Shown: positions 1,795 through 16,859 of the stretch, piece after piece
Numbering within the stretch: position 1 is the stretch's first letter
Layout: every line of letters starts with the position of its first letter
Source: Desulfobacterales bacterium RIFOXYA12_FULL_46_15
Lineage (GTDB): Bacteria > Desulfobacterota > Desulfobacteria > Desulfobacterales > Desulfobacteraceae
Direction: 5' to 3'
Assembly (NCBI GenBank): GCA_001799395.1
Contig: MGTJ01000140.1
Coordinates: 1-38,934, forward strand
Length of the DNA stretch: 38,934 bases
Notes under the pieces: model-generated
Told to the model about the DNA's origin: nothing
The model's input: only the letters and a program-made list of their open reading frames with translations
The model's database searches: none
Position numbers and translations under genes: made by a program

Positions 1795-2958
1795 ATGGCG
1801 GCACCCATACAGCATTTGCGAAAATTTGTGGCACCGGAAATCATTTTCGGAAACGGATCAAGGCATCTGGCCGGGCAATATTGTAAAAAATTTCATGTGA
1901 AAAAGCCTGTTATTGTAACGGATAAGGGTGTTATTCAAGCAGGATGGACCCGGCAGGTGGAAGAAAGCCTGGCTCTCGAAAACCTGGATTATGTGGTCTT
2001 TTCCGATGTCAGCCCCAACCCCCGGTCAGATGAGGTAATGAACGGCGCCCTGGTTTATAGCCGGGAAAATTGTGATGCCATTGTTGCCGTCGGCGGCGGC
2101 AGTCCCATGGATTGCGCAAAAGGAATCGGGATTGTCACCTCAAATCAAGGCCATATCCTTGATTATGAAGGAGTCGACCTGATTTCCAGCCCCCTGCCGC
2201 CCATGATTTTTATCCCCACGACGGCAGGGACATCGGCCGATGTATCCCAGTTCTGTATTATTAATAATATTGAAGAGCGGGTCAAGATCGCCATCATCAG
2301 TAAAATCGTTATCCCTGATATTGCCCTGATAGACCCGGAAACCACCACCACCATGGATGCCTATCTTACCTCGTGTACCGGCATGGATGCCATGGTGCAT
2401 GCAGTCGAAGCATTCGTATCAACGGCCAGTTCAAAAATGACGGATATTCACGCCCTTGAGGCGCTTCGGCTTTTGAGCCTTAACCTGCCCCGTGTCATTG
2501 AATCACCGGGGGATATGGACATCCGGGAAAACATCATGCTGGCCAGTATGGAAGCCGGGCTCGCCTTTTCCAATGCCGTTCTCGGAGCCGTCCATGCCAT
2601 GGCCCACAGCCTGGGCGGTTTTCTCGATCTTCCCCACGGGGAATGCAATTCACTTTTGCTGGAACACGTGGTGAATTTCAACCATGATGCAGCCCCTGAA
2701 CGATTTGCCGTCATTGCAAAAACCCTTGGGATCGACATTGGCGGGAAGACCTCGAAAAATGTCAAAAAAGCACTGTTTGATCATATCCGTCATCTCAGAC
2801 ACCATCTCGGGATTTCAAAAAGCCTGGGACAGGTGAATGTCAAACGATATGATATTCCCGATCTGGCCCGGAACGCCATAAATGATGCCTGTCTCCTGAC
2901 CAACCCGAGAAAAGCCGGTAAACGGGATATTGAAATTATTTATGAAGAAGCCCTTTAA
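1795..2958 (+). CDS. ercA: Iron-containing alcohol dehydrogenase, ErcA-like
   Basis: This is a full-length (387 aa) group III Fe-dependent alcohol dehydrogenase. The NAD-binding GGGSPMDCAKG motif lies near residues 100-110. All four metal ligands expected by analogy with FucO are present: D198, H202, H267 and H281. The C-terminal tail (ending NPRKAGKRDIEIIYEEAL) has the form I associate with ErcA. ErcA is an alcohol-dehydrogenase-like protein that in Pseudomonas acts with the sensor kinase ErcS in control of alcohol oxidation. Here too the gene overlaps the start of a PAS sensor kinase. The role is therefore either catalysis (alcohol/aldehyde interconversion in the cytoplasm) or metabolite sensing for the kinase; I favour the latter from context. 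A ribosome binding site (AGAGGT) lies 4 bases before the ATG. The gene symbol is by similarity only. Confidence 0.85.
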   Translation: MAAPIQHLRKFVAPEIIFGNGSRHLAGQYCKKFHVKKPVIVTDKGVIQAGWTRQVEESLALENLDYVVFSDVSPNPRSDEVMNGALVYSRENCDAIVAVGGGSPMDCAKGIGIVTSNQGHILDYEGVDLISSPLPPMIFIPTTAGTSADVSQFCIINNIEERVKIAIISKIVIPDIALIDPETTTTMDAYLTSCTGMDAMVHAVEAFVSTASSKMTDIHALEALRLLSLNLPRVIESPGDMDIRENIMLASMEAGLAFSNAVLGAVHAMAHSLGGFLDLPHGECNSLLLEHVVNFNHDAAPERFAVIAKTLGIDIGGKTSKNVKKALFDHIRHLRHHLGISKSLGQVNVKRYDIPDLARNAINDACLLTNPRKAGKRDIEIIYEEAL

Positions 2959-4648
2959 TCAAACGCATTCGGAAGAAGAAACCTTTGCCCGGCTTATCGG
3001 GCTGGGTGAAAAATCATTACAGAAGAGCTATTTTCCCCAACTTCAAAAAAAAATCCGGGAACTGGAAAAAAGTGAGTACCGTTACCGGCTTCTCGCAGAA
3101 AATGTTACAGATGTCATCTGGCTCCTGGACCTGAACTGCTGTTTTCAATATCTCAGCCCATCCATTCAGAAAATGAGCGGGTTCTCACCGGCAGAGCTTA
3201 CGGGTCTGCCGGTGGACAGGCTGTTGACCTTGGATTCATCAAAACGGTTTATGGATATTGTTGGCCAGGCCTTTAAGAACCCGGAAGATGCCGGAAGCAG
3301 GCTTCAAAAAGAACTGGAGCTGCAACAAACAGGTAAGGACGGCAGCATAAAATGGATAGAGGTAGGGCTCTCGGTCTTTTTTCACAAGCCTGAAAAGGAA
3401 ACCCTTATTTTAGGGATTGCCAGGGATATTACGTCCCGGAAAGCGGCTGAACAGGAAAAGATAAAAATCCAGGAACAACTGGTACAGGCCCAGAAAATGG
3501 AATCCATCGGTATCCTTGCGGGCGGCATTGCCCATGATTTCAACAATTTATTGACCATAATCAACGGGTATGCAGAGATGGCTTTGGAAGACCTGAAAAA
3601 AGACCACCCAATGTTTAAAAAAATCAATGCCATTCAACAGGCTGGGAAAAGAGCCGAAACCCTGACCCGCCAACTGCTGGGATTCAGCCGGAAACAAATA
3701 TACCTGCCGGTTACCTTGAATATCAACGAGACCATTTTATCTCTCAACAAAATGCTGGGCCGGATCATTGGTGAGGATATCAGCGTTGAAATGGTGCTTG
3801 AGAAAACTATTGATTCCATCAGCGCAGATCAATCCCAGATCGAGCAGATTTTCACCAATCTGATCATTAATGCCAGGGATGCCCTGAAACCTTCATCCCT
3901 GGAAGGGCAGAAGAAAAGGATCACCATTGAAACCGGCCAGACCTTTTTTGATTCTGACACCATCAAACGAGTCGGTCTTGACACCCCGGGGCCTTATATT
4001 TTTTTCTCGGTTTCCGACAACGGAGTGGGAATGAACCGGGAATTATTAAAAAGAATCTTTGAACCCTTTTTTACAACCAAGGAAAAACATGAAGGCACAG
4101 GGCTTGGTCTTTCACTGATCTATGGAATTGTCAAACAGAACAAAGGCAGTGTTCAGGTTTACTCGGAAGAGGGCCGGGGAACCATGTTCAAAATTTACTG
4201 GCCCGTTTCCCTTAGCAAACGGAAAATAAACCTGCCCCGGCCGGAACCCGCCATTGAAAATCTGTCCGGAAATGAATCCGTTCTGGTGGTCGAGGATGAC
4301 AGGGATGTCTGCCATTTTGCCGCCAATTGTCTTTTATCCCTGGGATATGAGGTCCATAAAGCCTTTGACGGGGATGAGGCCCTGTCCTTTCTCCATGAAA
4401 ACAAGAAGCCGCCGGATCTGATGATCACCGATCTGATCATGCCGAATCTGAGCGGGAAGGCCCTGGCAAAAAAAGCGCTGGCCCATCTCCCTGCAATAAA
4501 GATCATTTATGTTTCCGGGTATACGGATAATCATATTGTCCATGACGGTCTTCTTGAACAGGGGGTGAATTTTCTCCAGAAACCATATTCCCAGCAGGAT
4601 CTGGCAAAGATGGTCAGAAAGGTGCTCAATCAGGGCCAGACTCTGTGA
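2942..4648 (+). CDS. PAS hybrid histidine kinase with C-terminal receiver
   Basis: This is a soluble hybrid sensor kinase of 568 aa; no membrane segment is visible. From the N-terminus there is a short helical lead, a PAS domain (about 40-160), and a HisKA domain with the phospho-acceptor His198 in GGIAHDFNN. An HATPase domain follows with N-box NLIINARDAL, DNGVGM and GTGLGL, then a receiver domain (about 440-565) whose phospho-acceptor is Asp497 in MITDLIMP. The start is uncertain: an in-frame TTG lies at 2930 and an ATG at 2942, and I chose the ATG. Either start overlaps the ercA-like gene (by 17 or 29 bases), which indicates translational coupling. By analogy with ErcA/ErcS the PAS domain may respond to the state of the dehydrogenase or its substrate. 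No classic DNA-binding response regulator is adjacent; the next gene may be the output. Confidence 0.9.
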   Translation: MKKPFNQTHSEEETFARLIGLGEKSLQKSYFPQLQKKIRELEKSEYRYRLLAENVTDVIWLLDLNCCFQYLSPSIQKMSGFSPAELTGLPVDRLLTLDSSKRFMDIVGQAFKNPEDAGSRLQKELELQQTGKDGSIKWIEVGLSVFFHKPEKETLILGIARDITSRKAAEQEKIKIQEQLVQAQKMESIGILAGGIAHDFNNLLTIINGYAEMALEDLKKDHPMFKKINAIQQAGKRAETLTRQLLGFSRKQIYLPVTLNINETILSLNKMLGRIIGEDISVEMVLEKTIDSISADQSQIEQIFTNLIINARDALKPSSLEGQKKRITIETGQTFFDSDTIKRVGLDTPGPYIFFSVSDNGVGMNRELLKRIFEPFFTTKEKHEGTGLGLSLIYGIVKQNKGSVQVYSEEGRGTMFKIYWPVSLSKRKINLPRPEPAIENLSGNESVLVVEDDRDVCHFAANCLLSLGYEVHKAFDGDEALSFLHENKKPPDLMITDLIMPNLSGKALAKKALAHLPAIKIIYVSGYTDNHIVHDGLLEQGVNFLQKPYSQQDLAKMVRKVLNQGQTL

Positions 4649-4688: not shown

Positions 4689-7600
4689 ATGGAAATATTG
4701 AATTCAAAATTTCAGCCCCCGCAATTACCTGCCATACTTCACAGGGAAAGGCTTTTCAGGAAGGTTTCGGCCATCTCTGGCAAAGCGCTCATCACGGTTA
4801 CAGCCGGTGCCGGTTATGGAAAAACCACCCTGGCCCGTGATGCCGTGTCCCGGCTTGATATAAAAACGGTGTGGATCAGGCTTGACCCCCGGGATACGGA
4901 TTTAATGGTGTTCATGGCCTGTCTTGAATCAGGGATACGAAGGGCCTTCACCGGATTGGATGATCATCACCAAAAAAGCTCACCGGAACAATCTATATTA
5001 AAACATAACCCCCGTCTTGTCTTAAAATTTCTGAGAACCCTTGAAAAAACGGTTCAAAAAGAAACCGTCATGGTTCTGGATGATTATCACCTGGTCCAGG
5101 AGAACAAGACCATCAATGAGGCCCTTGAATTGATGCTTCTGCATCTTCCTGCCCATATGCATCTGATCCTTATCAGCCGAAGGGAGCCGCCCATCCGGTT
5201 GTCAAGGCTCCGCTCGATGAACCGCCTTATTGAGATCAGTGAAGCGGATCTGTCATTTACCTTTCCGGAAATAAAAGATTTTTTTTCTAAAATATTCAAT
5301 CTTCCCGTCACAGACGATCATATCCTGGAACTCCACGAAAAAACAGGCGGATGGGCTGCCAGCCTGGTTTTATTCCGGTATGCGCTAAAAGGGAAAACTC
5401 AAGGTGAAATTGAAACCTGCCTTTTGGGGTTCAAAGGGTCGCACCGGTTTATTTTTTCATATCTTGAGGAGAATATTTTTGAAACCCAGCCGCTTGAAAC
5501 CCGGGAATTCATGATGAAGGCCGGTCTTCTTTCCGTCATTGATCCTGAATTCTGCAACCGGGTATTTCAGATCACCAATGCCGGCATCATCCTTGGCCGG
5601 ATGATGGAAGATCATCTTCTGATCTTTCCTGCCAATGAAAATCAAACCCTGTTTATATTTCATCACCTGTTAAAAGATTATCTGGCTGAAAAATTAAGCC
5701 TCGAATACCCGGTTCCAGAACTTAATGCCCTGCATCAAAGGATTGCACAGGAAATCGAACCGGATGATATATTTGAGGCATTATTCCATTATATCGAAGG
5801 CAGGGACTATGATGACGCCATCCGTGTGATAGAAACCCATGAATTAAAATTTCTGCTGGAAGGCAAAATTCATTTTCTTGGAAAATGTCTTGAAAAAATC
5901 CCCGGGACCGTGGTTGAAAACAATCCCAAGCTGTTGTTTGCTCAGGCCAAACTGTTCTCCTATTATGGAAGTCCCCGGGAAGCGGTTTTAAAACTTCAGA
6001 CCGCCTATTCCCTGTTTAAAAAGACACAATCAAATGAGGACATGGTAAAATGCCTGGTTGATATAGGCGCCCAGTATTATGGCAGCGGCTATGTAAAAGA
6101 AGCCAAACTTTTGATGGAGCAGGTGCTTTCTGAAGTGAATCCATCCTCAGCCACATATATCGTTGCCATGACCTATCTGATATTTTTAGCAGCCGTCCTG
6201 GGTGAATTTGACGCATCGGAAAAATACACCCGGGAGGCTGGGGAAGTGATTGCCGAATATCCTGATTTTGAACGGTGTGTTGCCCTGGCCCTGATCAATA
6301 CCTCTTATGCATATAAATTATATATTTCAGGGGATTTTGAAAAATCCCGGGCGCTCAATGAAAAACTTTTGAAAACCGTGCTGGATCTAAAGGCAGAATC
6401 TGTCCTGCCCCTTATCTATTACCAGTGCTCTGCCACCAGTGCTGCTCTTGGACGGTTTGAAACCGGATATGACTATGGTAAAAAAGGGATTGAAATTTGT
6501 GAAAAAATAAATCTCCGGGACAGCAAAAAAGGATGGGTGCATATTGCAGTCTCCCAGAACTGCATGGGTCTTGGCAGGTTTGAGGAAGCAATTGACCATC
6601 TGAATGCAGGCATTGAAATATTTGAAATGCCCTGCAACCGGTGGGGGCTTGCCAATGCCCGGCATTGTCTTCACCAGGTTCTTGTTGAACAGAAAAAACC
6701 GGATCAGGCAAAAGAACTCCTGCTCAACTCCCTGGATATTATCGACGGGTATGACCTGATCATTACCGAAGGCATTCTTGAAAACAGTCTGGCCGCTCTT
6801 TTGATACAGGAAAAAAACCCTGAAGAGGCAATGGATTGCCTCAACCGTTCCAGACACAAGGTTCAAAATGCCTTTTTTTACCTGTTTGAAAATCATATGC
6901 TCACGGCCCGGTGTTATCTTTTGCAGAACCTGCATTCCGAAGCCAACCGCCATTTTGCCCTGGGGATGAAAATTTCCGGGCAAAAAGAGTATTTCAGGTT
7001 TGTCAGGGAAAAATTCAAGGATCTCTTACCCTTACCGGAGACCGGCGGGCCCGGAAGCGGATCAAACCGGTTTCTTTCCGGACAGCCTGTTTTATCACCG
7101 GAAAAGCCAGCTCCTTTATTAATCATCCGGCTATTGGGCAGATTCAGATTGTTTATGGGTAAGAATGAAATCTATCCGGCTTCCTGGAAAAATTCCAAAT
7201 CCCTCATGATATTAAAATATCTGGCATCCAACAGGCATCTGGGATTTATCCCCAGGGAGGTGCTGATTGAATTATTATGGCCGGATCAGGATTTTCTGAA
7301 AACCGGCAAGCGGTTTAATGTAGCCATGAGCGCTTTAAGAAAAATACTGGAACCCGATTTAGCACCCAAGGCGTCTTCGGCTTATATCCTTCGGAAAAAA
7401 GATGCTTACCGGCTGTGTGAAAATGACAGGGCCATCATTGATATTGAACAATTCCTTTATGAATTTGATACTGCCCGGAAACTTGAATATACCCACCCCG
7501 GGCAGGCGATGGCGTGTTGGACAGCAGCCGAATCCCGTTATGAAGGTCTTTTTCTTGAAGAAGACCCTTACGAGGAGTGGTGCCTTTCAATCAGGGACCG

Positions 7601-7892
7601 GTTGAATTCAACCTATCTCCAAGTCCTGACCGGGATGTTGCGGTTCCATGAAAAAAATGATGATGTCCAGGCCTGCATTGTCAGTGCAAAAAAAATATTA
7701 AAAACAGATCCCTATGATGAAGGCACCATCAGAAAGCTGATGGGGTTTTATGCCGGGCTTGGAAATACTGCGGCAGTCAAAAAAACTTATACGGATTACC
7801 AGTCAAGGGCAAGGGAAATGGATTGCCCTGTGAATCCGGAAACCACAGAGCTCTTGAAAAAGCTGACCTTAAATCAAAAATATATAGGATAG
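4689..7892 (+). CDS. MalT-like ATPase/TPR regulator with SARP-type (BTAD) C-terminus
   Basis: This is a very large (1067 aa) signal-transduction ATPase. The N-terminus (SKFQPPQLPAILHRERLF) is typical of MalT/LuxR-type STAND proteins. The Walker A motif GAGYGKTT spans residues 40-47 and the Walker B-like MVLDDYHL has Asp131-Asp132. The middle (about 380-770) is helical and TPR-like. The usual C-terminal LuxR helix-turn-helix is replaced by an OmpR/SARP-type winged helix (about 808-900, LLGRFRLF...LLWPDQ...RFNVAMSALRKIL) and a bacterial transcriptional activator domain (about 905-1060). It is thus a MalT-SARP hybrid activator. The start ATG at 4689 has no strong ribosome binding site, only weak purines. 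It lies 40 bases after the kinase gene, on the same strand. Targets are unknown; the divergently regulated glycyl radical operon downstream is one candidate. Confidence 0.88.
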   Translation: MEILNSKFQPPQLPAILHRERLFRKVSAISGKALITVTAGAGYGKTTLARDAVSRLDIKTVWIRLDPRDTDLMVFMACLESGIRRAFTGLDDHHQKSSPEQSILKHNPRLVLKFLRTLEKTVQKETVMVLDDYHLVQENKTINEALELMLLHLPAHMHLILISRREPPIRLSRLRSMNRLIEISEADLSFTFPEIKDFFSKIFNLPVTDDHILELHEKTGGWAASLVLFRYALKGKTQGEIETCLLGFKGSHRFIFSYLEENIFETQPLETREFMMKAGLLSVIDPEFCNRVFQITNAGIILGRMMEDHLLIFPANENQTLFIFHHLLKDYLAEKLSLEYPVPELNALHQRIAQEIEPDDIFEALFHYIEGRDYDDAIRVIETHELKFLLEGKIHFLGKCLEKIPGTVVENNPKLLFAQAKLFSYYGSPREAVLKLQTAYSLFKKTQSNEDMVKCLVDIGAQYYGSGYVKEAKLLMEQVLSEVNPSSATYIVAMTYLIFLAAVLGEFDASEKYTREAGEVIAEYPDFERCVALALINTSYAYKLYISGDFEKSRALNEKLLKTVLDLKAESVLPLIYYQCSATSAALGRFETGYDYGKKGIEICEKINLRDSKKGWVHIAVSQNCMGLGRFEEAIDHLNAGIEIFEMPCNRWGLANARHCLHQVLVEQKKPDQAKELLLNSLDIIDGYDLIITEGILENSLAALLIQEKNPEEAMDCLNRSRHKVQNAFFYLFENHMLTARCYLLQNLHSEANRHFALGMKISGQKEYFRFVREKFKDLLPLPETGGPGSGSNRFLSGQPVLSPEKPAPLLIIRLLGRFRLFMGKNEIYPASWKNSKSLMILKYLASNRHLGFIPREVLIELLWPDQDFLKTGKRFNVAMSALRKILEPDLAPKASSAYILRKKDAYRLCENDRAIIDIEQFLYEFDTARKLEYTHPGQAMACWTAAESRYEGLFLEEDPYEEWCLSIRDRLNSTYLQVLTGMLRFHEKNDDVQACIVSAKKILKTDPYDEGTIRKLMGFYAGLGNTAAVKKTYTDYQSRAREMDCPVNPETTELLKKLTLNQKYIG

Positions 7893-7935: not shown

Positions 7936-8655
7936 TTATGCGTACTTTGATGAAAGGCCGGCTTTAAACTTTTGAAATCTCTTTGTCGATTCCACTATAT
8001 GAAGCCTCATGCCCTCTGCAGCCCTTTCAGAGTCTTTTTTTTCAATAGCATCTATAACGGTGCGGTGGTGAGTGATGACCTGTTCAATCCATTTCAAGTC
8101 CTGGCTTAACGACACGTGAAGAAATTCATTGTTTTTTTCCATCATGGCGACAATTCCTTCATAAACTCTTGACAGAATTGCGTTATGCGCGGCTTCCACA
8201 ATGATACTGTGGATCAGGAATTCGTCTCTTGCGTGCTGTTTCATTTCTTCGGTATTGTTTGGTTGATTTCTCTCAAGCCGAGCCAGGAATTCTTTTAATT
8301 TTTCAAGTTCATCCATGGTACGGCGTCCGGCTGCCAATTCTGCAGCATGGACGTCTATGATCAACCGCATTTCCATGAGCTGGGGCACAAAGTCTGAGTG
8401 CCAGGACGGAAGGAAGCGCAAATTTTCATTGAAATCCTGTAGAGTCTGTATTTTGACAAAAATACCCTGGCGCAGCCTGACCTCCAGTATACCCAAGGTT
8501 TCCAAAGCGATAATGGCTTCCCTTAAAAGCACTCTGCTGATCCCTAATTCCTCGGCAAGTTTTCGTTCCGGAGGAAGTCTGTCGTTGGGGGCATATACAC
8601 CATTTTGTATGTCCTGCTTTATTTTTCTTATGATCGACTCTCGTTTATTTTCCAT
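7936..8655 (-). CDS. GntR-family (FadR subgroup) transcriptional regulator
   Basis: This 239-aa cytoplasmic regulator has an N-terminal winged helix (about 1-70), including LPPERKLAEELGISRVLLRE and a wing ending in RLRQGIFVKI. A C-terminal all-helical FCD ligand-binding domain follows (about 85-225) with the expected metal-ligand-like residues in ARDEFLIHSIIVEAAHN and ITHHRTVIDAI. FCD domains bind small organic acids, often with a metal ion. It is transcribed divergently from the glycyl radical operon. The intergenic region holds two perfect TTGGT-N3-ACCAA palindromes, the form bound by FadR-type regulators, so it very likely represses or tunes that operon. A GGAG ribosome binding site lies about 11 bases before the ATG. 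The inducer is presumably a substrate or product of the radical enzymes. Confidence 0.92.
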   Translation of the reverse strand: MENKRESIIRKIKQDIQNGVYAPNDRLPPERKLAEELGISRVLLREAIIALETLGILEVRLRQGIFVKIQTLQDFNENLRFLPSWHSDFVPQLMEMRLIIDVHAAELAAGRRTMDELEKLKEFLARLERNQPNNTEEMKQHARDEFLIHSIIVEAAHNAILSRVYEGIVAMMEKNNEFLHVSLSQDLKWIEQVITHHRTVIDAIEKKDSERAAEGMRLHIVESTKRFQKFKAGLSSKYA

Positions 8656-8687
8656 ACTATCATTTTCTCCGGTTCAGGGTTGATTCT

Positions 8688-8716
8688 TTAATATAAACTA
8701 AAAAAAATCTTGACAA
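8688..8716 (-). promoter_or_regulatory. Predicted sigma-70 promoter of the GntR gene
   Basis: On the minus strand TTGTCA (8711-8716) and TATTAA (8688-8693) are separated by exactly 17 bases, about 33 bases upstream of the GntR start codon. The same bases read TTGACA (8710-8715) on the plus strand, so the two divergent -35 regions may overlap, although no convincing plus-strand -10 follows at normal spacing. Confidence 0.5.
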
Positions 8717-8758
8717 ATACTAATTTTTAATTCAGATTTAAAAAAAATCTGGAAATAC

Positions 8759-8773
8759 CTTGGTAAGACCAAG
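8759..8773. promoter_or_regulatory. GntR/FadR-type operator, copy 1
   Basis: This is a perfect 15-bp palindrome-type site, CTTGGTAAGACCAAG (TTGGT, 3-base spacer, ACCAA). It matches the TGGT-N3-ACCA pattern known for FadR-subgroup GntR regulators. It lies between the divergent GntR and glycyl radical enzyme genes. An identical copy is centred 68 bp downstream. Confidence 0.75.
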
Positions 8774-8826
8774 CATATTTTGTTTTGAATTTTTTGTAAA
8801 GCATTTATGCTTTTTTTTCAACCTTG

Positions 8827-8841
8827 CTTGGTAAGACCAAG
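8827..8841. promoter_or_regulatory. GntR/FadR-type operator, copy 2
   Basis: This second copy is identical over all 15 bases to the site at 8759-8773. It ends 25 bases before the start codon of the first glycyl radical enzyme, so it probably lies in the 5' untranslated region or overlaps the transcription start. Occupancy here would block transcription directly. A possible -10 element (TATGCT, 8806-8811) lies between the two copies, so the sites may flank the promoter. Confidence 0.75.
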
Positions 8842-8866
8842 GACATACCAAAAAAAGGAGGTGACC

Positions 8867-11197
8867 ATGATATCAACCCGTTTAACCAATTTAAAAAATA
8901 AATTAGTCGATACCCAACCCCGTGTGTATGCAGAACGCGCATTGCTTGTGACAAAGGCTTATCAGGAAACTGAAGGTTGTGAGCCTTGTGTCCGAAGAGC
9001 CCATGCCATGGAAAAAATACTTTTGAACTGTAGTGTTATCATCCGGGAAAACGAATTGGTGGTGGGAGCCAAGACGCCAACTCCTATGGGGTCCCCGCTT
9101 TATCCTGAATTCAACAGTCAGTGGATTGAAAAAGAGATTGATACTCTGGCGCAAAGAAAAGAAACCTCGTTTCTTATTGATGAGGAAAACAAAAAGCTGG
9201 TAAAGGAAAAGGTCCTTCCGTATTGGCCAGGCCGGACAGTATATGACCGGATACTGGAAAATGTACCCCATGAATCGCTGGAAGCTGTCGATGAGGGATT
9301 ATTTTTCCATTATTATCTGAACCGGAGTATCGGTCATATCACTGTGGATTACGGCCGCATATTAAACCAGGGATTGACAGGGATTCAAACCCAGGTAGAA
9401 GCTGCCCTTGAGAAAAACCCGAAAAATATTTATCTTCAATCCCTGCTTAAAATTATCTCCGCCATTTCAGGATTTGCCCGCAGGTATGCAGATGAAGCTG
9501 AAAAACAGGCTGAGTCCTGCTTAAATGAAACACGCCGCCAGGAGCTTTTGGAAATCGCAAGGATCTGCAGCATGGTTCCCCTGCATCCGGCAACCAGTTT
9601 CAGGGAAGCTATTCAATCCTTCTGGTTTTTCCATCTGGTTCTTAATCTGGAGAGCAACTCCTATGCCATTTCCCCGGGCAGATTTGATCAGTATATCAAC
9701 CCATATTACCAAAAAGACCTGGACCAGGGAATTATCAGCCAAGAAGCAGCCCAGGAAGTTATCAACTGCCTCTGGATAAAATTTGCCGAATTAACCGTAG
9801 TGAAAGAGGGGGAAACTGCAAAAGCCAGCAACACCTATACGGACTTTCAGAATCTGAATATCGGAGGACTTAAAAAGGACGGAACCGACGGAGTCAATGA
9901 TATCTCCTATATGTGCATTGAAGCACAGAAAGAACTCTGTCTTCCTCAGCCCCAGTTGTCCTGCCTTATCAGTACCCGTTCTCCCCGGGAATTTCTTGTC
10001 AAATCCTGTGAATTGACCAGGAAAGGAACCGGTATGCCTGCAGTTTTCAATGCGGATGAACTCATCCTCGCCCTTATGGATAAAGGCAAATCCCTGGAAG
10101 ATGCGAGATGCGGAGGCATTAACGGTTGTGTAGAAATCACGGGCCAGGGAAATGATAACATGGCATCGTCAGGGTATGTGAATTTAGCAAAATGCCTGGA
10201 ATTAACCCTGAACAATGGAAAAAGCATGACCACCGGCAGGCAGTGGGGGCCAGAAACCGGGACGGCAGAGGTCCTGGATTCAATGGAAAAAATCTGGACG
10301 GCATTTGAAACACAGATCCGCCACCAGGCAACACTGAAACATCAGTATGACCAAGGAGCGAGAGCTGCTTTTGCGGCTGTCTGCCCGGTCCTTTGCACTT
10401 CCCTGGCCATAAGCGGATGTATCGAATCTGCCAGAGATTTTCACGAGGGCGGTGCCCGATACAACCTGCCGATGATGTGCGGTGTGGGAACCGGAACGGT
10501 GGCAGACTCACTGGGCGCTATTGACTGGTTTGTATTTAAGAAAAAAATGATGCCCTTGAACCGGATCACACAGGCCATGCAGACAAATTATGCCACTGAC
10601 GATACCCTGAGACATATGTTGCTGAAAAAGGGACCGAAATTCGGAAATGACAATGATGAAGTGGATATCCAGGCTGTAAAATTGATTAAAACTTTTGTGA
10701 AAGTTCTTAAGGATTTTTCGAACGATCAGAATAATCCCTATGCCGCCAACATGATTCCTACCACTGCCCATCTTCCTTTTGGCGAGCTTACGGCTGCTTC
10801 GGCTGACGGCCGGCTGGCTGCTGCACCCCTGTCGGAAGGCATCTCTCCGGTCCAGGGGATGGATTTGTCCGGGCCTACGGCTGTAGTAAAAACCATGGGA
10901 AAAATTGATCATGGCGCCACAGCCGGAACGCTCCTGAATATGAAATTTACCCCTAAAACCCTGGAAGGCGCCGATCGCCTGAATAAATTTGCAGATCTGA
11001 TCCGGGTCTATTTCGACATGGGGGGGCATCATATGCAGTTTAACGTGGTGGATCGTGAGACCCTGCTGAAGGCCCAAAAAACGCCTGAGGAATTCCGGTC
11101 CCTTCTGATCAGGGTGGCCGGTTATAGTGATTATTTTGTCATGCTCAGCAAAGATGTGCAGGATGAAGTGATTTCCCGGATGGACCATGCAATGTAA
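8867..11197 (+). CDS. Glycyl radical enzyme 1 (eliminase/dehydratase type, substrate unknown)
   Basis: This is a full-length (776 aa) PFL-like radical enzyme. The thiyl-radical motif GCVE carries Cys421 and the base Glu423. The C-terminal glycyl radical loop RVAGYSDYF carries Gly752. The CxE pattern is that of eliminases/dehydratases (glycerol/propanediol dehydratase, choline lyase, hydroxyproline dehydratase) rather than pyruvate formate-lyase (adjacent Cys-Cys). Around the active Cys the sequence differs from glycerol dehydratase: the acidic residue expected about 14 residues later is Ser by ungapped count. I therefore do not assign a substrate. The start was set at 8867, where AGGAGG lies 5-10 bases upstream; an in-frame upstream ATG at 8807 would run through the operator and is rejected. 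It is first in the GntR-controlled operon with its activases downstream. The enzyme is oxygen-sensitive and cytoplasmic. Confidence 0.92.
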   Translation: MISTRLTNLKNKLVDTQPRVYAERALLVTKAYQETEGCEPCVRRAHAMEKILLNCSVIIRENELVVGAKTPTPMGSPLYPEFNSQWIEKEIDTLAQRKETSFLIDEENKKLVKEKVLPYWPGRTVYDRILENVPHESLEAVDEGLFFHYYLNRSIGHITVDYGRILNQGLTGIQTQVEAALEKNPKNIYLQSLLKIISAISGFARRYADEAEKQAESCLNETRRQELLEIARICSMVPLHPATSFREAIQSFWFFHLVLNLESNSYAISPGRFDQYINPYYQKDLDQGIISQEAAQEVINCLWIKFAELTVVKEGETAKASNTYTDFQNLNIGGLKKDGTDGVNDISYMCIEAQKELCLPQPQLSCLISTRSPREFLVKSCELTRKGTGMPAVFNADELILALMDKGKSLEDARCGGINGCVEITGQGNDNMASSGYVNLAKCLELTLNNGKSMTTGRQWGPETGTAEVLDSMEKIWTAFETQIRHQATLKHQYDQGARAAFAAVCPVLCTSLAISGCIESARDFHEGGARYNLPMMCGVGTGTVADSLGAIDWFVFKKKMMPLNRITQAMQTNYATDDTLRHMLLKKGPKFGNDNDEVDIQAVKLIKTFVKVLKDFSNDQNNPYAANMIPTTAHLPFGELTAASADGRLAAAPLSEGISPVQGMDLSGPTAVVKTMGKIDHGATAGTLLNMKFTPKTLEGADRLNKFADLIRVYFDMGGHHMQFNVVDRETLLKAQKTPEEFRSLLIRVAGYSDYFVMLSKDVQDEVISRMDHAM

Positions 11198-11258
11198 CCG
11201 TCAAGAGATGAGGCAAAGATGATTCACTGCCTGTATAAAAGAAATAGAAGGAGGATTA

Positions 11259-13616
11259 ATGGCTTCCGTACGGGTAAAAAAATTATATAAAAGACTGGTC
11301 GAGAGTACACCTGAGATATCCATTGAGCGGGCCGAGCTTTATACTGAAGGAGTAAAGGCAGCAGCCGGAAAATCCATCTATTTACAGCGGGCATCAGGTT
11401 TTGCCCGTGTTCTGGAGCAGATGTCCCTGGTTTTCAATCCTTACGAACTGATCGTTGGCAGCATGACCGAGAAAGAACGCGGCGCCGTTGTTATCCCTGA
11501 ATATGGATGGAAATGGATAGAAAAGGAACTGGATTTTTTCTCTACCCGAAAAGCCGACCCATTGAAAATCAGTGAAGCGGAAAAGCAATCCTTAAAAGAC
11601 ATTTTTCATTTCTGGGAAGGCAAAAGTGTTGAAGAATCCGTTGATCAAAAGCTCTCTTCCGAGATGAAAAATGCCATGGAAGCCGGGCTCACCACCTTGG
11701 GAGGGCACGCCACTTCCATCGGGAATATTACACCTGATTATGAAATGGTGCTTAAAGAGGGGTTTGAAGGGATAAAATCAAAAGTGGAAAAACAATTGCA
11801 GGGTTTATCCTTCAACTCTTTTGAAGACGGTGAAAAAGCCCAGTTTTATGAAGCAGCAATTGTGGCTCTGGATGCAGCCGTCCGTTTTGCAGACCGGTTA
11901 AGTAAACAGGCAGCGGATATGGCGGAAAATGAAGAAAACCCTATTCGGAAAAATGAATTAGCAGACATTGCCCGAATCTGCAGCCAGGTTCCGAACCATC
12001 CGCCGAAAACTTTCTATGAAGCCTTGCATGCCTTATGGATAACACATCTAATCATCAGCATGGAAACAAACCCCCATGGTCTATTGTTTGGCAGATTAGA
12101 TCAATATTTATGGCCTTTTTATAAAAAGGACATGAAAGAAGGCCGTATCACAAAAGAAAGAGCAAAAGAGCTGCTCTGCTGTTTCTGGATCAAGGTGACG
12201 GAATTGATAAAAATCCGTGATAATTTCTATAGTGAGGCGTTCAGCGGTTTCCCCCTTTTCCAGGTTGCCATGATCGGCGGTGTTGATGAAAACGGTCATG
12301 ATGTGACCAATGATCTTTCTTATCTGATACTTGATGTCGTCGAAACTGTAAAGACCACTCAACCGTCCATATCCCTGCGCTGTCATCAAAGGACACCGGC
12401 AAAATTACTGATTTCTGCCTGCAAAACGGTCAAAACCGGATTGGGGATTCCCGCCTTTGTCAATGATGATACCATTATTCCTAAAATGATATTGCGCGGC
12501 GCAAGCTTGAAAGAGGCCCGCACTTATGTTACCAACTGCATTGAACCGGATATACCGGGCATGACCGATTCCAGGTCCCATTCCGGTTATGTCAATTTCG
12601 GAAAATGCATGGAACTTACTCTCAATAACGGGGTAGACCCGGCCACGGGCAGGCAGATTGGGCCAAAAACCGGTCCTGTCACAGATTTTAAGACATTTGA
12701 GGGTCTTTACCAGGCAGTTTTTCAGCAGATCAGGTATGCCATCGAACTTATTGAAAAAGCCTACAATATGTGTGAAACCGTTCATGCCCAGCTCGCTCCT
12801 GAAGTATTTCTATCCCTTTTCATCCATGATTGTATTAAAAGGGGAAAGCCCCGGCAATCAGGCGGGGCAAGGTACAACCACAGCACTATTTTCGGAACCG
12901 GAGCAGCAACACTTGTGGACTCCCTCCTGGCTATCGAACATCTGGTTTATAATGAAAAAAGCATTTCTTTGGAAGCATTTGCCGGCATTCTTCAAAACAA
13001 TTTTCAAGGCGAAGAACGTTTCCGGATGCAGCTTTTGAACCGCTGTCCAAAATTCGGCAATGATATCGAAGAAGCAGATCTTTTGGCACACAGAGTGATC
13101 AGTGATTTCTGCGAAGAGATTCAAAACCGCAAAGGAATGCGGGATGGTACCTATATAGCCGAAATCCATTCTGTGGCCATGCACACAATCTTTGGGAAAT
13201 TATGTGGTGCAACTCCGGACGGCCGAAAAAAAGGCCAGGTTTTATCCGATGGCATCTCCCCTGTCCAGGGTGCGGACAGAAAAGGACCTACGGCCACAAT
13301 TTCCTCTGTGGAAAAGCTGGATCACCTCAATGTATTGAACGGGACCCTGTTTAACCAGAAATTAAGTCCCCAATGCCTGAAAACGGAAAATGACTTCAGC
13401 CGAATGGCCTCTTTGATCAAAACCTATTTTGCAGGCGGCGGCCATCATATCCAGTTTAATATTGTGGATACAGAAACACTCCTGGCAGCCCAGGCAAACC
13501 CTGAACAATATAAAAGCCTTGTCGTCAGGGTCGCGGGTTACAGCGCGTTTTTCAATGAATTGACAAAAGAAGTTCAGGACGAAATTATCCAACGCACAGA
13601 ACAAACCTGGGGTTAA
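11259..13616 (+). CDS. Glycyl radical enzyme 2 (eliminase/dehydratase type, substrate unknown)
   Basis: This is a second full-length radical enzyme (785 aa), clearly paralogous to the first but divergent. The catalytic motif is NCIEP with Cys427 and Glu429; the residue before Cys is Asn, whereas most eliminases have Gly. The glycyl radical motif RVAGYSAFF carries Gly760. All radical-chemistry residues are present, so this is not a dead copy. Active-site-lining regions differ from enzyme 1 (SGFPLFQVAMIGG against NTYTDFQNLNIGG; NCIEPDIPGMTDSRSHSGY against GCVEITGQGNDNMASSGY), so the two probably act on different substrates or successive steps. A strong ribosome binding site (AAGGAGG) lies 5 bases before the ATG. 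The gene is 61 bases after enzyme 1 in the same operon. Confidence 0.92.
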   Translation: MASVRVKKLYKRLVESTPEISIERAELYTEGVKAAAGKSIYLQRASGFARVLEQMSLVFNPYELIVGSMTEKERGAVVIPEYGWKWIEKELDFFSTRKADPLKISEAEKQSLKDIFHFWEGKSVEESVDQKLSSEMKNAMEAGLTTLGGHATSIGNITPDYEMVLKEGFEGIKSKVEKQLQGLSFNSFEDGEKAQFYEAAIVALDAAVRFADRLSKQAADMAENEENPIRKNELADIARICSQVPNHPPKTFYEALHALWITHLIISMETNPHGLLFGRLDQYLWPFYKKDMKEGRITKERAKELLCCFWIKVTELIKIRDNFYSEAFSGFPLFQVAMIGGVDENGHDVTNDLSYLILDVVETVKTTQPSISLRCHQRTPAKLLISACKTVKTGLGIPAFVNDDTIIPKMILRGASLKEARTYVTNCIEPDIPGMTDSRSHSGYVNFGKCMELTLNNGVDPATGRQIGPKTGPVTDFKTFEGLYQAVFQQIRYAIELIEKAYNMCETVHAQLAPEVFLSLFIHDCIKRGKPRQSGGARYNHSTIFGTGAATLVDSLLAIEHLVYNEKSISLEAFAGILQNNFQGEERFRMQLLNRCPKFGNDIEEADLLAHRVISDFCEEIQNRKGMRDGTYIAEIHSVAMHTIFGKLCGATPDGRKKGQVLSDGISPVQGADRKGPTATISSVEKLDHLNVLNGTLFNQKLSPQCLKTENDFSRMASLIKTYFAGGGHHIQFNIVDTETLLAAQANPEQYKSLVVRVAGYSAFFNELTKEVQDEIIQRTEQTWG

Positions 13617-13626
13617 AGATTTTTGA

Positions 13627-14535
13627 ATGATCAAAGGAATTGTATACGACATTATGCGGTATGCCCTGAATGACGGACCCGGCATCCGCACTATTGTATT
13701 TCTAAAGGGATGCCCCCTTTCGTGCCAATGGTGTTCCAACCCGGAAAGCCAGTCCTTTTACCCGGAATTTATCTTTTATAAAGATCAATGCATGAGTTGC
13801 AATACCTGTGAAACTGTGTGTGCTGAAAATGCCGTTTCAATAAACAAAAGCGATCACCGGCAGGTAGATTTGGAAAAATGCACTCATTGCAACCAGTGCG
13901 TTGACCGATGTTTTGCGGAAGCACTCCGTTTGGTGGGGCGTTCAATGAGTGTTGAAGCTGTAATGACCGATGTGATGAAAGATTGTAATTTCTATATGGA
14001 ATCAGGGGGCGGCGTCACTTTTTCAGGCGGAGAGCCTTTTTCTCAACCGGAATTTTTAAAAGCCTGTTTGAAAGCCTGCAAGACCAGAAATCTGAACACT
14101 GCTGTCGAAACTGCCGGGATAATACGCTGGGAGCTTATCGAATCTCTTCTTCCCCTGGTTGATCTGTTTCTTTTTGATCTGAAAGCAGGCACTGCCAAAG
14201 ATTATAAACGATTCACCGGAATAGCCGGTCATAAGATTTTCAGTAATTTAGAAAAACTGCTAGCACGCCATGATGTGATTATACGGATACCTATGATACC
14301 CGGCCTGAATGACAGGGGACAATCCTGGAAAGACATAATCGATTTCTTAGAGCAATTGAACTGGAGAGGCCGGATAGACCTTTTGCCATACCATCGTATG
14401 GGCATAGGCAAATATATCGGATTGAACCGGGAATATGGTTTGGACAGCTCTAAGACAGCAGATATGGAAAACATAAAATTAAAAAGAAAACAATTGGCAG
14501 CGGCTGGTTTTAAAACCTGTATCCATGGCGGCTAA
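13627..14535 (+). CDS. Glycyl radical enzyme activating enzyme 1 (radical SAM)
   Basis: This 302-aa radical SAM protein generates the glycyl radical on its partner enzyme using S-adenosylmethionine and a [4Fe-4S] cluster. The radical SAM motif CxxxCxxC is Cys29, Cys33 and Cys36. A ferredoxin-like insert follows with two further [4Fe-4S] sites: Cys55, 58, 61, 65 and Cys85, 88, 91, 95. This insert marks the activases of dehydratase/eliminase-type radical enzymes and is absent from PflA. The GGGVTFSGGEP motif binds SAM. It starts 10 bases after radical enzyme 2; the ribosome binding site is weak, which suggests translational coupling. Which of the two enzymes it serves cannot be read from sequence; gene order points to enzyme 2. 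Confidence 0.93.
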   Translation: MIKGIVYDIMRYALNDGPGIRTIVFLKGCPLSCQWCSNPESQSFYPEFIFYKDQCMSCNTCETVCAENAVSINKSDHRQVDLEKCTHCNQCVDRCFAEALRLVGRSMSVEAVMTDVMKDCNFYMESGGGVTFSGGEPFSQPEFLKACLKACKTRNLNTAVETAGIIRWELIESLLPLVDLFLFDLKAGTAKDYKRFTGIAGHKIFSNLEKLLARHDVIIRIPMIPGLNDRGQSWKDIIDFLEQLNWRGRIDLLPYHRMGIGKYIGLNREYGLDSSKTADMENIKLKRKQLAAAGFKTCIHGG

Positions 14536-14587
14536 GGTTCTTAAATGATGATAAAGCAACTAAAGAAATATATTGGAGGTTATGTCC

Positions 14588-15541
14588 ATGTTTCTGCAAT
14601 TAACCCGTTTAGCCGGTCATAAAAATCAATTACAGAATACCCTGTTGACAGGAACCATTTTTGACGTCAAACGGTATGCCATCCATGACGGATCAGGCAT
14701 CCGGACCACGATATTCTTCAAAGGGTGCCCTTTGGCCTGCCTCTGGTGTGCCAATCCGGAATCCCAGTCATACCTGCCGGAACTGACATATATCAGTACC
14801 GAATGCCTCAGTTGCGGCATGTGCCGTCAGACGTGCCCGAACGAGGCGATTTCACTTGTTGATCAAAAGGTAATTGTGGCTCCGGAAAAATGTGATCTTT
14901 GCGGGCATTGTGTTGAAAACTGCCCGGGAAATGCTCTTCAGCTCATGGGCCGGACTGTCACCCTTAATGGACTTTTCAAGGAAATCGAAACAGACCGGCC
15001 TTTCTGGGACCGGTCCGGCGGTGGCGTCACCCTGTCCGGCGGAGAGCCTCTGGCTCAGTTTGATTTTATTCTGGCTTTTTTAAACGCCTGTAAAAAAAAG
15101 TATATATCAACGGCAATTGAAACATGTCTTTACACCACTCTTGATAAGATCAAGGCAATTCTTCCTGTTGTGGATCATGTGATCTGCGATCTGAAAATTA
15201 TGGATAGCGGTCGTCATAAAATCAATACCAGGGTTTCAAACCAAATGATCAAAGAGAACATGAAGATACTTCTTGTAAGCGGGGCCGATGTTTTGGTCCG
15301 CATGCCGCTTATTCCCGGTATCAACGATGATAAAAAAAATCTTGAGGCCATGGGTGCATTTATTGAATCATGTCGAAAAGGAGCCAGGGTCGAGCTTTTG
15401 CCCTACCATCGGTTAGGGGAATCCAAGTATCGGCGGATGAAAAAGGATTATAAACTGGTTCATATTTCACCGCCTTCAAAAGAGAAGATGGAGCGTGCAA
15501 GAAAAGTGCTGGAGACATTTGATATACATGTCCTTATTTAA
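14588..15541 (+). CDS. Glycyl radical enzyme activating enzyme 2 (radical SAM)
   Basis: This is a second activase (317 aa) with the same plan as the first. The radical SAM cysteines are 47, 51 and 54, and the ferredoxin insert has Cys73, 76, 79, 83 and Cys102, 105, 108, 112. GGGVTLSGGEP is also present. It has about 18 extra N-terminal residues before the conserved GTIFDVKRYAIHDG segment. Three in-frame starts exist (TTG 14573, ATG 14582, ATG 14588). I chose 14588 because GGAGG (14575-14579) is 8 bases upstream, whereas the others overlap or crowd that site. A dedicated activase for each of the two radical enzymes is the simplest reading. Confidence 0.92.
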   Translation: MFLQLTRLAGHKNQLQNTLLTGTIFDVKRYAIHDGSGIRTTIFFKGCPLACLWCANPESQSYLPELTYISTECLSCGMCRQTCPNEAISLVDQKVIVAPEKCDLCGHCVENCPGNALQLMGRTVTLNGLFKEIETDRPFWDRSGGGVTLSGGEPLAQFDFILAFLNACKKKYISTAIETCLYTTLDKIKAILPVVDHVICDLKIMDSGRHKINTRVSNQMIKENMKILLVSGADVLVRMPLIPGINDDKKNLEAMGAFIESCRKGARVELLPYHRLGESKYRRMKKDYKLVHISPPSKEKMERARKVLETFDIHVLI

Positions 15542-15601: not shown

Positions 15602-15692
15602 TCCCTGAAAATTTAGTCGGAATTTAGTCTGCGGTTTTATAACCCTGGTTAAACCGTATCAATTTTTGTTCTTTAACCAAAGGGGGAAATAT

Positions 15693-16859
15693 ATGATTGA
15701 ACTGGCGCTCAAAGGAAGCAGGACTTATTGGATATGGATTGCAAGCCTTTTGGCTGTTCTGGCTGCGGGAGCGGTTTTCTATGCAGACCAGCTGAAATAT
15801 GGCCTCATGGTAACCGGCCAGAGCCGGGATGTATCCTGGGGGTTTTATACTGCCCAGATGACTTATTTTGTGGGTGTCGCAGCAGGGGGTGTCATGCTGG
15901 TGCTGCCTTATTATCTGCATGATTACAAAAAATTCGGCCGGATCACTCTTTTTGGAGAATTTCTGGCAGTTGCAAGCCTGGTCATGTGTCTGCTTTATCT
16001 TCTGATCCACCTGGGGCAGCCCATGAGGGCCCTGAACGTATTTTTATACCCCAGTCTGAAATCCATGCTGTTCTGGGATGGGAATGTCCTTTTCGGATAT
16101 CTTATAGTAAATCTTATTATCGGGTGGAATATGCTGGAAGCGGAGCGCAACAGCATAGCTCCCCCGCTTTGGATCAAGCCCCTGATTTATATTTCCATCC
16201 CCATGGCTTTTTCCATCCATACGATTACCGCTTTTATTTATTGCGGCCTTCCGGGCCGGGGATTCTGGCTGACAGCTGTGCTTGCACCTCGATTTCTCGC
16301 GTCCGCCTTTGCTTCAGGCCCGGCCCTGCTGATTCTTTTGTGCCTCCTGATACGGAAGATCACCCGGTTTGATCCGGGAAAATCTGCTGTTCAGATGCTT
16401 TCAGTGATTGTTACCTATGCCCTGGCAGCCAATCTGTTTTTCCTCATGTGTGAAGTTTTTGTTGCATTTTACTCAAGAATCCCATCCCACATGGATCATA
16501 TAAAATATTTGTATACAGGCCTTCACGGCCATGGCGTTCTTGTGCCCTGGATGAGGGCCTCACTCTTTTCCATGATCCTGGCCATGATCCTTCTGTTGAT
16601 CCCGGGAACCCGGAAAAACGAAACCGTTCTGATTTTTTCCTGTATTCTTGTTTTTATCGGCACCTGGATCGACAAGGGTCTGGGTATGATTTCAGGCGGA
16701 TTTGTGCCATCCGCCCTTCATCATATCACCGAGTATGTTCCGACGCTCCATGAACTGATGATATCTCTGGGCGTCACTGCTGTGGGTCTGCTCATATTGA
16801 CGGTATTGTATAAAATGACGGTTTCAGTAAAAGAATACAATCAATCCGGCAGATTTTAA
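15693..16859 (+). CDS. NrfD/PsrC/DsrP-type integral membrane quinone-interacting protein
   Basis: This 388-aa polytopic membrane protein has about ten predicted helices. It resembles the NrfD family, the membrane subunits that exchange electrons between quinones and periplasmic or cytoplasmic iron-sulfur/cytochrome partners (DsrP, HmcC, PsrC). Conserved-looking elements include HLGQPMRALNVF, WDGNVLFGYL and WIDKGLGMISGGFVPS. The start was set at ATG 15693, 6 bases after AGGGGG (15681-15686); an upstream in-frame TTG at 15666 has no ribosome binding site. No iron-sulfur or cytochrome subunit lies beside it on the same strand, so it is an orphan here. It follows the radical-enzyme operon by 151 bases and may be transcribed with it, which could link that pathway to the quinone pool. 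Confidence 0.85.
   Translation: MIELALKGSRTYWIWIASLLAVLAAGAVFYADQLKYGLMVTGQSRDVSWGFYTAQMTYFVGVAAGGVMLVLPYYLHDYKKFGRITLFGEFLAVASLVMCLLYLLIHLGQPMRALNVFLYPSLKSMLFWDGNVLFGYLIVNLIIGWNMLEAERNSIAPPLWIKPLIYISIPMAFSIHTITAFIYCGLPGRGFWLTAVLAPRFLASAFASGPALLILLCLLIRKITRFDPGKSAVQMLSVIVTYALAANLFFLMCEVFVAFYSRIPSHMDHIKYLYTGLHGHGVLVPWMRASLFSMILAMILLLIPGTRKNETVLIFSCILVFIGTWIDKGLGMISGGFVPSALHHITEYVPTLHELMISLGVTAVGLLILTVLYKMTVSVKEYNQSGRF

Follow-up and report, generated by a model that had tools for sequence, protein, structure and literature searches.

The window, a stretch of 38,934 nucleotides (38.9 kb) from Desulfobacterales bacterium RIFOXYA12_FULL_46_15 (contig C140 of a 4.74 Mb assembly in 250 contigs), harbours at 7936–15541 (according to the open reading frame (ORF) list and including a divergent gntR gene) an operon for two intact glycyl radical enzymes (GREs) and two activases with ferredoxin inserts. 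Both GREs are new variants inside a known superfamily, members of which accomplish difficult anaerobic bond cleavages (e.g., of choline to trimethylamine (TMA), of hydroxyproline and of sulfonates), and both probably degrade compounds via routes not yet assigned to any enzyme. The favoured account, held at slightly less than even confidence, is that the operon is catabolic, is repressed by GntR and encodes two radical eliminases, GRE1 acting on a carboxylate and GRE2 being a separate eliminase.

gntR, 7936–8655, minus strand: GntR/FadR-type (LldR/PdhR-like) regulator, divergent from the GRE operon; best NCBIfam model LldR (100.7 bits, below the cut-off of 311)
GRE1, 8867–11197, plus strand: 776 aa, GRE of the HypD branch; C421, E423, G752
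GRE2, 11259–13616, plus strand: 785 aa, GRE of a new group; C427, E429, G760; N156, H273, H441, H637
act1, 13627–14535, plus strand: 302 aa, radical-SAM (S-adenosylmethionine) activase with ferredoxin insert, possible partner of GRE2
act2, 14582–15541, plus strand: 319 aa, radical-SAM activase with ferredoxin insert, probable partner of GRE1

The two glycyl radical enzymes

Both GREs are full-length with intact cysteine and glycine loops (GRE1, NGCVE at 419, i.e., C421/E423, and RVAGY at 749, i.e., G752; GRE2, TNCIEP at 425, i.e., C427/E429, and RVAGY at 757, i.e., G760), and the RVxGY loop, the CxE loop and the GRE fold place them among the eliminase-type GREs. They pass the NCBIfam model of the broad subfamily TIGR01774 (680.5 and 751.7 vs 678.2), and both activases pass TIGR02494 (343.7 and 337.0 vs a cut-off of 174.35); ferredoxin models match inside both activases with scores under those models' own cut-offs. 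The start of GRE1 is the ATG behind AAAGGAGG (the mechanical ORF opens earlier, at 8807), and that of act2 (ORF 14573–15541) was set to the ATG at 14582, with a second ATG at 14588. Intergenic gaps comprise 61 (GRE1-GRE2), 10 (GRE2-act1) and 46 bases (act1-act2, to ATG 14582). Frames, motifs and NCBIfam models thus agree with an earlier note on this DNA, which had described two divergent intact GREs and two ferredoxin-insert activases in one operon; the residues that it had numbered (CVE/Gly752 and CIE/Gly760) were found at the same positions. Tandem GREs as such are not unique: a spacing of less than 1 kb between two separate GRE frames is seen in 3 of 58 genomes (the present one, G033:C76 and G048:C42), a count that leaves out genes split by a stop or frame break. 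The excerpted text of a review (PMC11574389) does not mention two-GRE operons.

The AlphaFold models (GRE1, pLDDT 89.7, pTM 0.91; GRE2, pLDDT 87.8, pTM 0.89) have GREs as their top solved matches in Foldseek, with query TM-scores of 0.96 (GRE1) and 0.97 (GRE2). Sequence searches against solved GREs gave best E-values of 1.5e-185 and 8.6e-194, respectively, far beyond chance. The closest solved relatives share 37–40% identity, the maximum in the best 50 Foldseek rows being 38% for GRE1 and 39% for GRE2. By sequence ranking against the PDB, HypD (621.6 bits) is followed by glycerol dehydratase (589.0) in case of GRE1, and glycerol dehydratase (649.0) by diol dehydratase (622.1) in case of GRE2. 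None of the listed NCBIfam equivalog models was reached by either GRE, and both stay below the own equivalog cut-offs of CutC, the sulfopropanediol lyases HpsG/HpfG, PRK09983 and the indoleacetate and 4-hydroxyphenylacetate decarboxylases; solved isethionate lyases, for which no model was among those listed, share 29–30% identity with the two enzymes. The characterised enzymes in the GRE tree are HypD, CutC and the glycerol and diol dehydratases. It omits near-duplicate HypD rows, two further GREs of the same genome (on C64 and, as a fragment, on C96) and 5i2a, and keeps L077, a long row whose 19 stops were read as X and which carries no weight. Among the groups compared, neither GRE lies inside a characterised isofunctional one, as the earlier note had expected.

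GRE1 on the HypD branch

GRE1 is placed on the HypD branch by sequence, hidden Markov model and tree. The GRE1 clade, consisting of the window enzyme and its orthologs in the relatives G012 (63% identity), G157, G185 and G121 (54–55%), has a support of 100/99 and lies within the HypD branch with 100/100. For HypD, the excerpted text of Backman et al. (2020, PMC7077986) describes Ser334, Tyr450 and Thr645 as contacting the carboxylate of trans-4-hydroxy-L-proline (Hyp), Asp278 as close to its amine and hydroxyl, Glu436 and His160 as located at the hydroxyl, and Phe340 on the ring with Arg156 and Lys326 nearby; the variants D278N, S334A, D339N, F340A, H160Q and E436Q showed no activity. Fourteen HypD active-site columns were mapped onto the GRE1 clade by alignment, with the numbering checked; side chains were compared in this way rather than by ligand placement in the AlphaFold models. 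Eleven columns (R156, H160, K326, S334, D339, F340, C434, E436, Y450, T645 and G765) are kept in all five sequences, so that GRE1 retains the carboxylate pocket of Ser334, Tyr450 and Thr645. At W277-D278 all five are one residue shorter, with a Tyr, none of them has HypD Asp278, and the Phe152 column is occupied by Tyr in 5/5. Since the carboxylate columns are kept and Trp277-Asp278 are absent, GRE1 appears to be shaped for a carboxylate, not for a ring ammonium in the manner of HypD. These residues are the main clue to its substrate: GRE1 probably acts as an eliminase on a hydroxylated carboxylate that has no free secondary amine.

That GRE1 itself is a Hyp enzyme of the HypD type is hardly probable. 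HypD provides its best NCBIfam model (NF043068, 758.7 bits) as well as its best PDB sequence match, and 11 of the 14 compared columns are retained; however, the score is far under the curated cut-off of 1100, Asp278 is missing, the D278N exchange inactivates HypD according to the same excerpt (PMC7077986), the tree sets GRE1 apart from HypD, and another gene of the genome, a contig-end fragment, has the HypD model as its best match.

This fragment is a C-terminal GRE piece (contig C96; L071 2–766), downstream of which dipeptide-type ABC (ATP-binding cassette) transporter-like genes are located, with a similar layout in G005 (L073). C64 (L070 2120–6124) encodes a further GRE; it comprises about 1023 aa, some internal letters being masked or unknown, and is followed by an activase and a frame that by eye resembles an aldehyde dehydrogenase. 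In a sister clade of GRE1 (L008, L081, L082, L083, L084 and L089 from G038, G064, G123, G159, G222 and G185, respectively), GCVA replaces GCVE. The CxE glutamate is absent from all six of these GREs, the Cys, the Gly and the residues at Ser334/Tyr450/Thr645 being kept; for comparison, HypD E436Q is reported in the excerpt as inactive (PMC7077986).

GRE2 as founder of a new group

GRE2 founds, as far as can be read from its residues and phylogeny, a new GRE group with a rewired pocket. Among its matches with E ≤1e-172 in 389 genomes of the order, only GRE2 itself exceeds 40% identity, and among those with E ≤1e-180 in 345 genomes of the phylum, a set that partly overlaps the former, a single one does (G660, 60%); a contig scan with GRE2, which needs short exact peptide matches, yielded four relatives of 35–40%. 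GRE2 and its G660 counterpart form a clade of their own (100/100, branch length 1.01) and have the shortened loop YVTNCIEP in common. The residues His164, Ser282, Asp447 and Tyr640 of glycerol dehydratase, which we take to sit around the substrate, are the same in 3/3 solved glycerol/diol dehydratases. The columns of His164, Asp447 and Tyr640 hold Asn, His and His in both GRE2s, and that of Ser282 holds Gly in GRE2 and Ala in the G660 protein. A glycerol or 1,2-diol dehydratase in disguise is therefore very improbable, in view of these four exchanges, even though the best fold and sequence match of GRE2 is glycerol dehydratase 1r8w (TM 0.97, 39–40% identity) and His281, the Phe at the HypD Ser334 column and the CIEP motif are common to both.

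The G660 locus has the order SDR (short-chain dehydrogenase/reductase), GRE2, activase and HypD-branch GRE, surrounded by a Liv-type transporter, an Asp/Glu racemase homolog, a second SDR, two MttB homologs, a GntR and a DAO/sarcosine-oxidase-like set that reaches no equivalog cut-off. The HypD-branch GRE of G660 (L118 208–2559; G660:C22:42108–44459) carries GCVT in place of GCVE and scores 1050.7 bits on the HypD model (cut-off 1100). It is not an ortholog of GRE1 (42% identity) and joins the HypD side of the tree. Thus, in both genomes where GRE2 was found the neighbour is a HypD-branch GRE, though not the same one.

Activase partners and history of the operon

The GRE1 orthologs of G012, G157, G185 and G121 each have one activase gene as their direct neighbour; among the matches to GRE2 listed for these four draft assemblies, none exceeds 39%. 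The gene order is a gntR divergent from GRE1-act in G157, G185 and G121, and GRE1-act without a gntR beside GRE1 in G012; downstream of the activase, G157 and G121 have an SDR. Act2 groups with the activases of 4/4 of these loci (support 94/89, just below the starred level) and is 53% identical to that of G012, making it the probable partner of GRE1. Act1 does not group with the activases of GRE1 loci, and its placement is not settled by the activase tree; by position and exclusion it is a possible partner of GRE2. The window gntR shares 36–37% identity with the GRE1-adjacent gntR products of G157, G185 and G121, compared with 18–26% for seven other GntRs and 30% for an eighth (G185:C74). The simplest history looks like an insertion of GRE2-act1 into an older gntR|GRE1-act2 unit. 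Composition gives no signal of a foreign origin of GRE2-act1: the GC content at third codon positions of GRE2 and act1 (0.46 and 0.44) compares to 0.42–0.63 in 14 other window genes.

The earlier note had considered a two-substrate or a two-step radical elimination. Since GRE1-act is found without a listed GRE2 in four relatives and GRE2 together with another GRE in G660, two linked functions are favoured, and a pair of linked but separable eliminations explains the data better than a single obligate two-step path. In such a path GRE2 and GRE1 would act in sequence on one substrate, e.g., in successive dehydrations of a polyhydroxylated acid. One operon under one operator pair and the HypD-branch GRE beside GRE2 in both genomes would agree with this; nevertheless it is considered rather improbable, given the four further (draft) genomes with GRE1 and no GRE2 match above 39% among the matches listed, and the G660 partner of GRE2, which comes from another subclade and has CVT instead of CVE.

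Promoter and operators

promoter, 8710–8738, plus strand: TTGACA-N17-CAGATT, predicted for the GRE operon by consensus alone
operator copy 1, 8759–8773, plus strand: putative, CTTGGTAAGACCAAG, downstream of the promoter
operator copy 2, 8827–8841, plus strand: putative, CTTGGTAAGACCAAG, downstream of the promoter

The core TGGTNNGACCA occurs at only two sites in the window, both upstream of GRE1, and once each upstream of GRE1 in the three gntR-bearing relatives (G157, G185 and G121), i.e., in 4/4 gntR-linked GRE1 loci with the window counted. One more core site is present elsewhere in the 19.9 kb stretch of G185 and none elsewhere in those of G157 and G121; G012, lacking gntR beside GRE1, has no such core. 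This co-occurrence bears out the link to the GntR regulator under which the earlier note had placed the operon. TTGACA promoters above the operator are also present in G157 and G121 (33 bases from the -35 element to the operator, compared with 51 in the window), and the same pattern was not found in G185. With one mismatch allowed, TTGGTNNGACCAA gave four matches in the window, corresponding to the two near-palindromic operator sites read on both strands; shuffled controls had a mean of 0.80, and 1 of 100 shuffles reached four.

A third TTGGTNNGACCAA site of the genome (C244:5898; L148 5898–5910) is positioned between an SDR gene and genes of a TRAP (tripartite ATP-independent periplasmic) transporter, which are followed by a GlcD-like gene (523.5 bits, below the cut-off of 567.9), and is a lead only. 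A related SDR/TRAP set at G185:C74 (SDR 72%, binding protein 75% identical to the C244 set) has TTGGTAAGACCAA nearby, beside a GntR.

Proposed function and substrate class

In the absence of an effector, GntR would occupy the twin TGGTAAGACCA operators below the promoter, and a carboxylate effector would release it. The activases, using SAM and a 4Fe-4S cluster, would generate the glycyl radical on G752 of GRE1 and G760 of GRE2, from where the radical would pass to C421 or C427, respectively, for abstraction of a hydrogen from the substrate. The glutamate of the CxE motif may then aid departure of the neighbouring group as water (or amine). GRE1 would grip the substrate carboxylate in a HypD-like pocket formed by S321, Y437 and T632 together with K313 and R153. 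Because Trp277-Asp278 of HypD are absent, its substrate is most likely devoid of a free secondary ammonium; this points to a hydroxylated carboxylic acid and, with lower probability, to an N-alkylated hydroxyproline. GRE2 would represent a separate, rarer eliminase that probably arrived between GRE1 and act2 in one cassette with act1.

Regulator type and neighbours of GRE1 recurrently, if weakly, hint at hydroxy acids: the regulator is LldR/PdhR-like, TRAP genes are present in the GRE1 loci of G012 and G185, a 2-hydroxyacid dehydrogenase is encoded at that of G185, and a LarA homolog at that of G012. The latter scores below all LarA equivalog cut-offs, and its ortholog in the genome of the window (82% identity) is located beside genes that by eye resemble subunits of glycolate/lactate-type oxidases. 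The TRAP and GlcD-like genes at the third TTGGTNNGACCAA site fit the same weak theme.

Several observations speak against the favoured account. The TRAP binding proteins of G012 and G185 are only 27% identical, LarA is multi-copy in 5/7 genomes and absent from G157 and G121, and MttB is multi-copy in 6/6 genomes. Adjacency of MttB, LarA or TRAP genes was accordingly rejected as proof of a pathway, these genes being multi-copy or not orthologous. Foldseek with the GRE1 model ranks diol/glycerol dehydratases ahead of HypD (rank 7), an order that weighs against naming GRE1 a HypD. The activase next to GRE2 in G660 is as close to act1 as to act2 (45% identity each), and no catabolic partner gene was recognised adjoining the operon in the window. 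The strict operator pattern has three sites in the genome, compared with four for a reversed control (chance level), and a regulon based on it was rejected.

A different substrate class is suggested by the amine-related genes in relatives. GRE1, and perhaps GRE2, may act on N-methylated or betaine hydroxyproline and, together with demethylating MttB systems, serve in the breakdown of osmolyte betaines. Asp278 would then have been lost because a tertiary or quaternary nitrogen does not have to be deprotonated. The position of GRE1 on the HypD branch, the retained ring-contact Phe340, the two RACo-type proteins at the GRE1 locus of G012, and the two MttB homologs with the sarcosine-oxidase/DAO-like dehydrogenase set at the GRE2 locus of G660 are in accord with this. 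On the other hand, the N-methyl-cis-4-hydroxyproline dehydratases 8iof and 8id1 (31–32% identity to GRE1 and 31–34% to GRE2, as pairwise figures from outside the tree) are more distant than HypD or glycerol dehydratase, the HypD-branch GRE of G660 is not an ortholog of GRE1, and the amine theme is weak because MttB matches are many in these genomes. Fragments included, their number amounts to 33 in G660 (a large expansion in a 4.5 Mb genome), 16 in G012 and 7 in the genome of the window. This possibility is accordingly judged unlikely, and a hydroxy acid without amine is given about twice the weight of an N-alkylated substrate.

With a hydroxylated carboxylate preferred for GRE1, the two substrates are no longer equally open, as they had been in the earlier note: neither GRE has an isofunctional match among the groups compared, and GRE1 has a place on the HypD branch, a carboxylate pocket and no amine site. 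One may further speculate, as a bold and improbable extension, that GRE2 performs an unassigned kind of radical elimination via its Asn/His/His pocket and, together with GRE1 and its missing amine site, two successive eliminations on one polyhydroxylated or N-alkylated carboxylate; the HypD branch at large also has enzymes whose CxE glutamate is replaced (GCVA, GCVT). If true, the GCVA/GCVT enzymes would perform radical elimination without the base held to be conserved.

New GRE groups have brought nutrient routes to light. The operon adds one new group (GRE2) and one new subgroup of the HypD branch (GRE1), for the latter of which a testable substrate constraint results (carboxylate yes, ring amine no). 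Candidate activase partners are at hand, and the readable operator offers a way to screen for the effector and, through it, to find the substrate.

Genomic neighbourhood

ErcA, 1795–2958: iron alcohol dehydrogenase-like regulatory protein (curated model, 613.0 vs 550)
PAS histidine kinase with receiver domain, 2930–4648: after ErcA
BTAD/TPR regulator, 4689–7892: after the PAS histidine kinase
DsrP-type NrfD membrane protein, 15666–16859: just after act2 (458.5 bits vs a cut-off of 350)

The upstream iron alcohol dehydrogenase-like gene was rejected as an aldehyde-processing partner, since its product passes the curated model of the regulatory protein ErcA. Three DsrP-type genes of the genome score above the cut-off (C45, C140 and C233), and the window copy may be a stray paralog. 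No RNA family at gathering score and no tRNA was detected in the window.

Comparison with known systems

GRE1 is nearest to HypD by sequence (621.6 bits, 38%) and shares with it the branch, the carboxylate pocket, CxE, His160, Asp339 and Phe340, but differs in the lack of Trp277-Asp278, in Tyr for Phe152 and in its score on the HypD model (758.7 vs 1100 bits); act2 falls outside the clade formed by the HypD activases in the comparison. The N-methyl-cis-4-hydroxyproline dehydratases 8iof and 8id1 as well as HplG (7vua) have the GRE fold and, according to their entry titles, act on hydroxyproline relatives; they are 28–34% identical to the window enzymes.

Choline TMA-lyase CutC (9ht9, 5fau and others) resembles GRE2 in the eliminase fold and CxE; both also have a Tyr aligned with HypD Tyr450 and a Phe aligned with Ser334. 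It shares 35–36% identity with GRE2. Where CutC has Asp at the glycerol dehydratase His164 column (presumably Asp216), GRE2 has Asn, and the Ser of CutC at the Asp447 column, which is distinct from the column of CutC Thr502, is replaced by His; no cut-type gene was recognised by eye among the larger ORFs of the window. Closest to GRE2 are the B12-independent glycerol/1,2-propanediol dehydratases (1r8w, 5i2a and 9rco; 649.0 bits, 39–40%), with which it shares the fold, CxEP, His281 and a Phe in the column of HypD Ser334. It differs from them by Asn, Gly, His and His at His164, Ser282, Asp447 and Tyr640, and by a Cys loop (VTNCIEP) that is one residue shorter.

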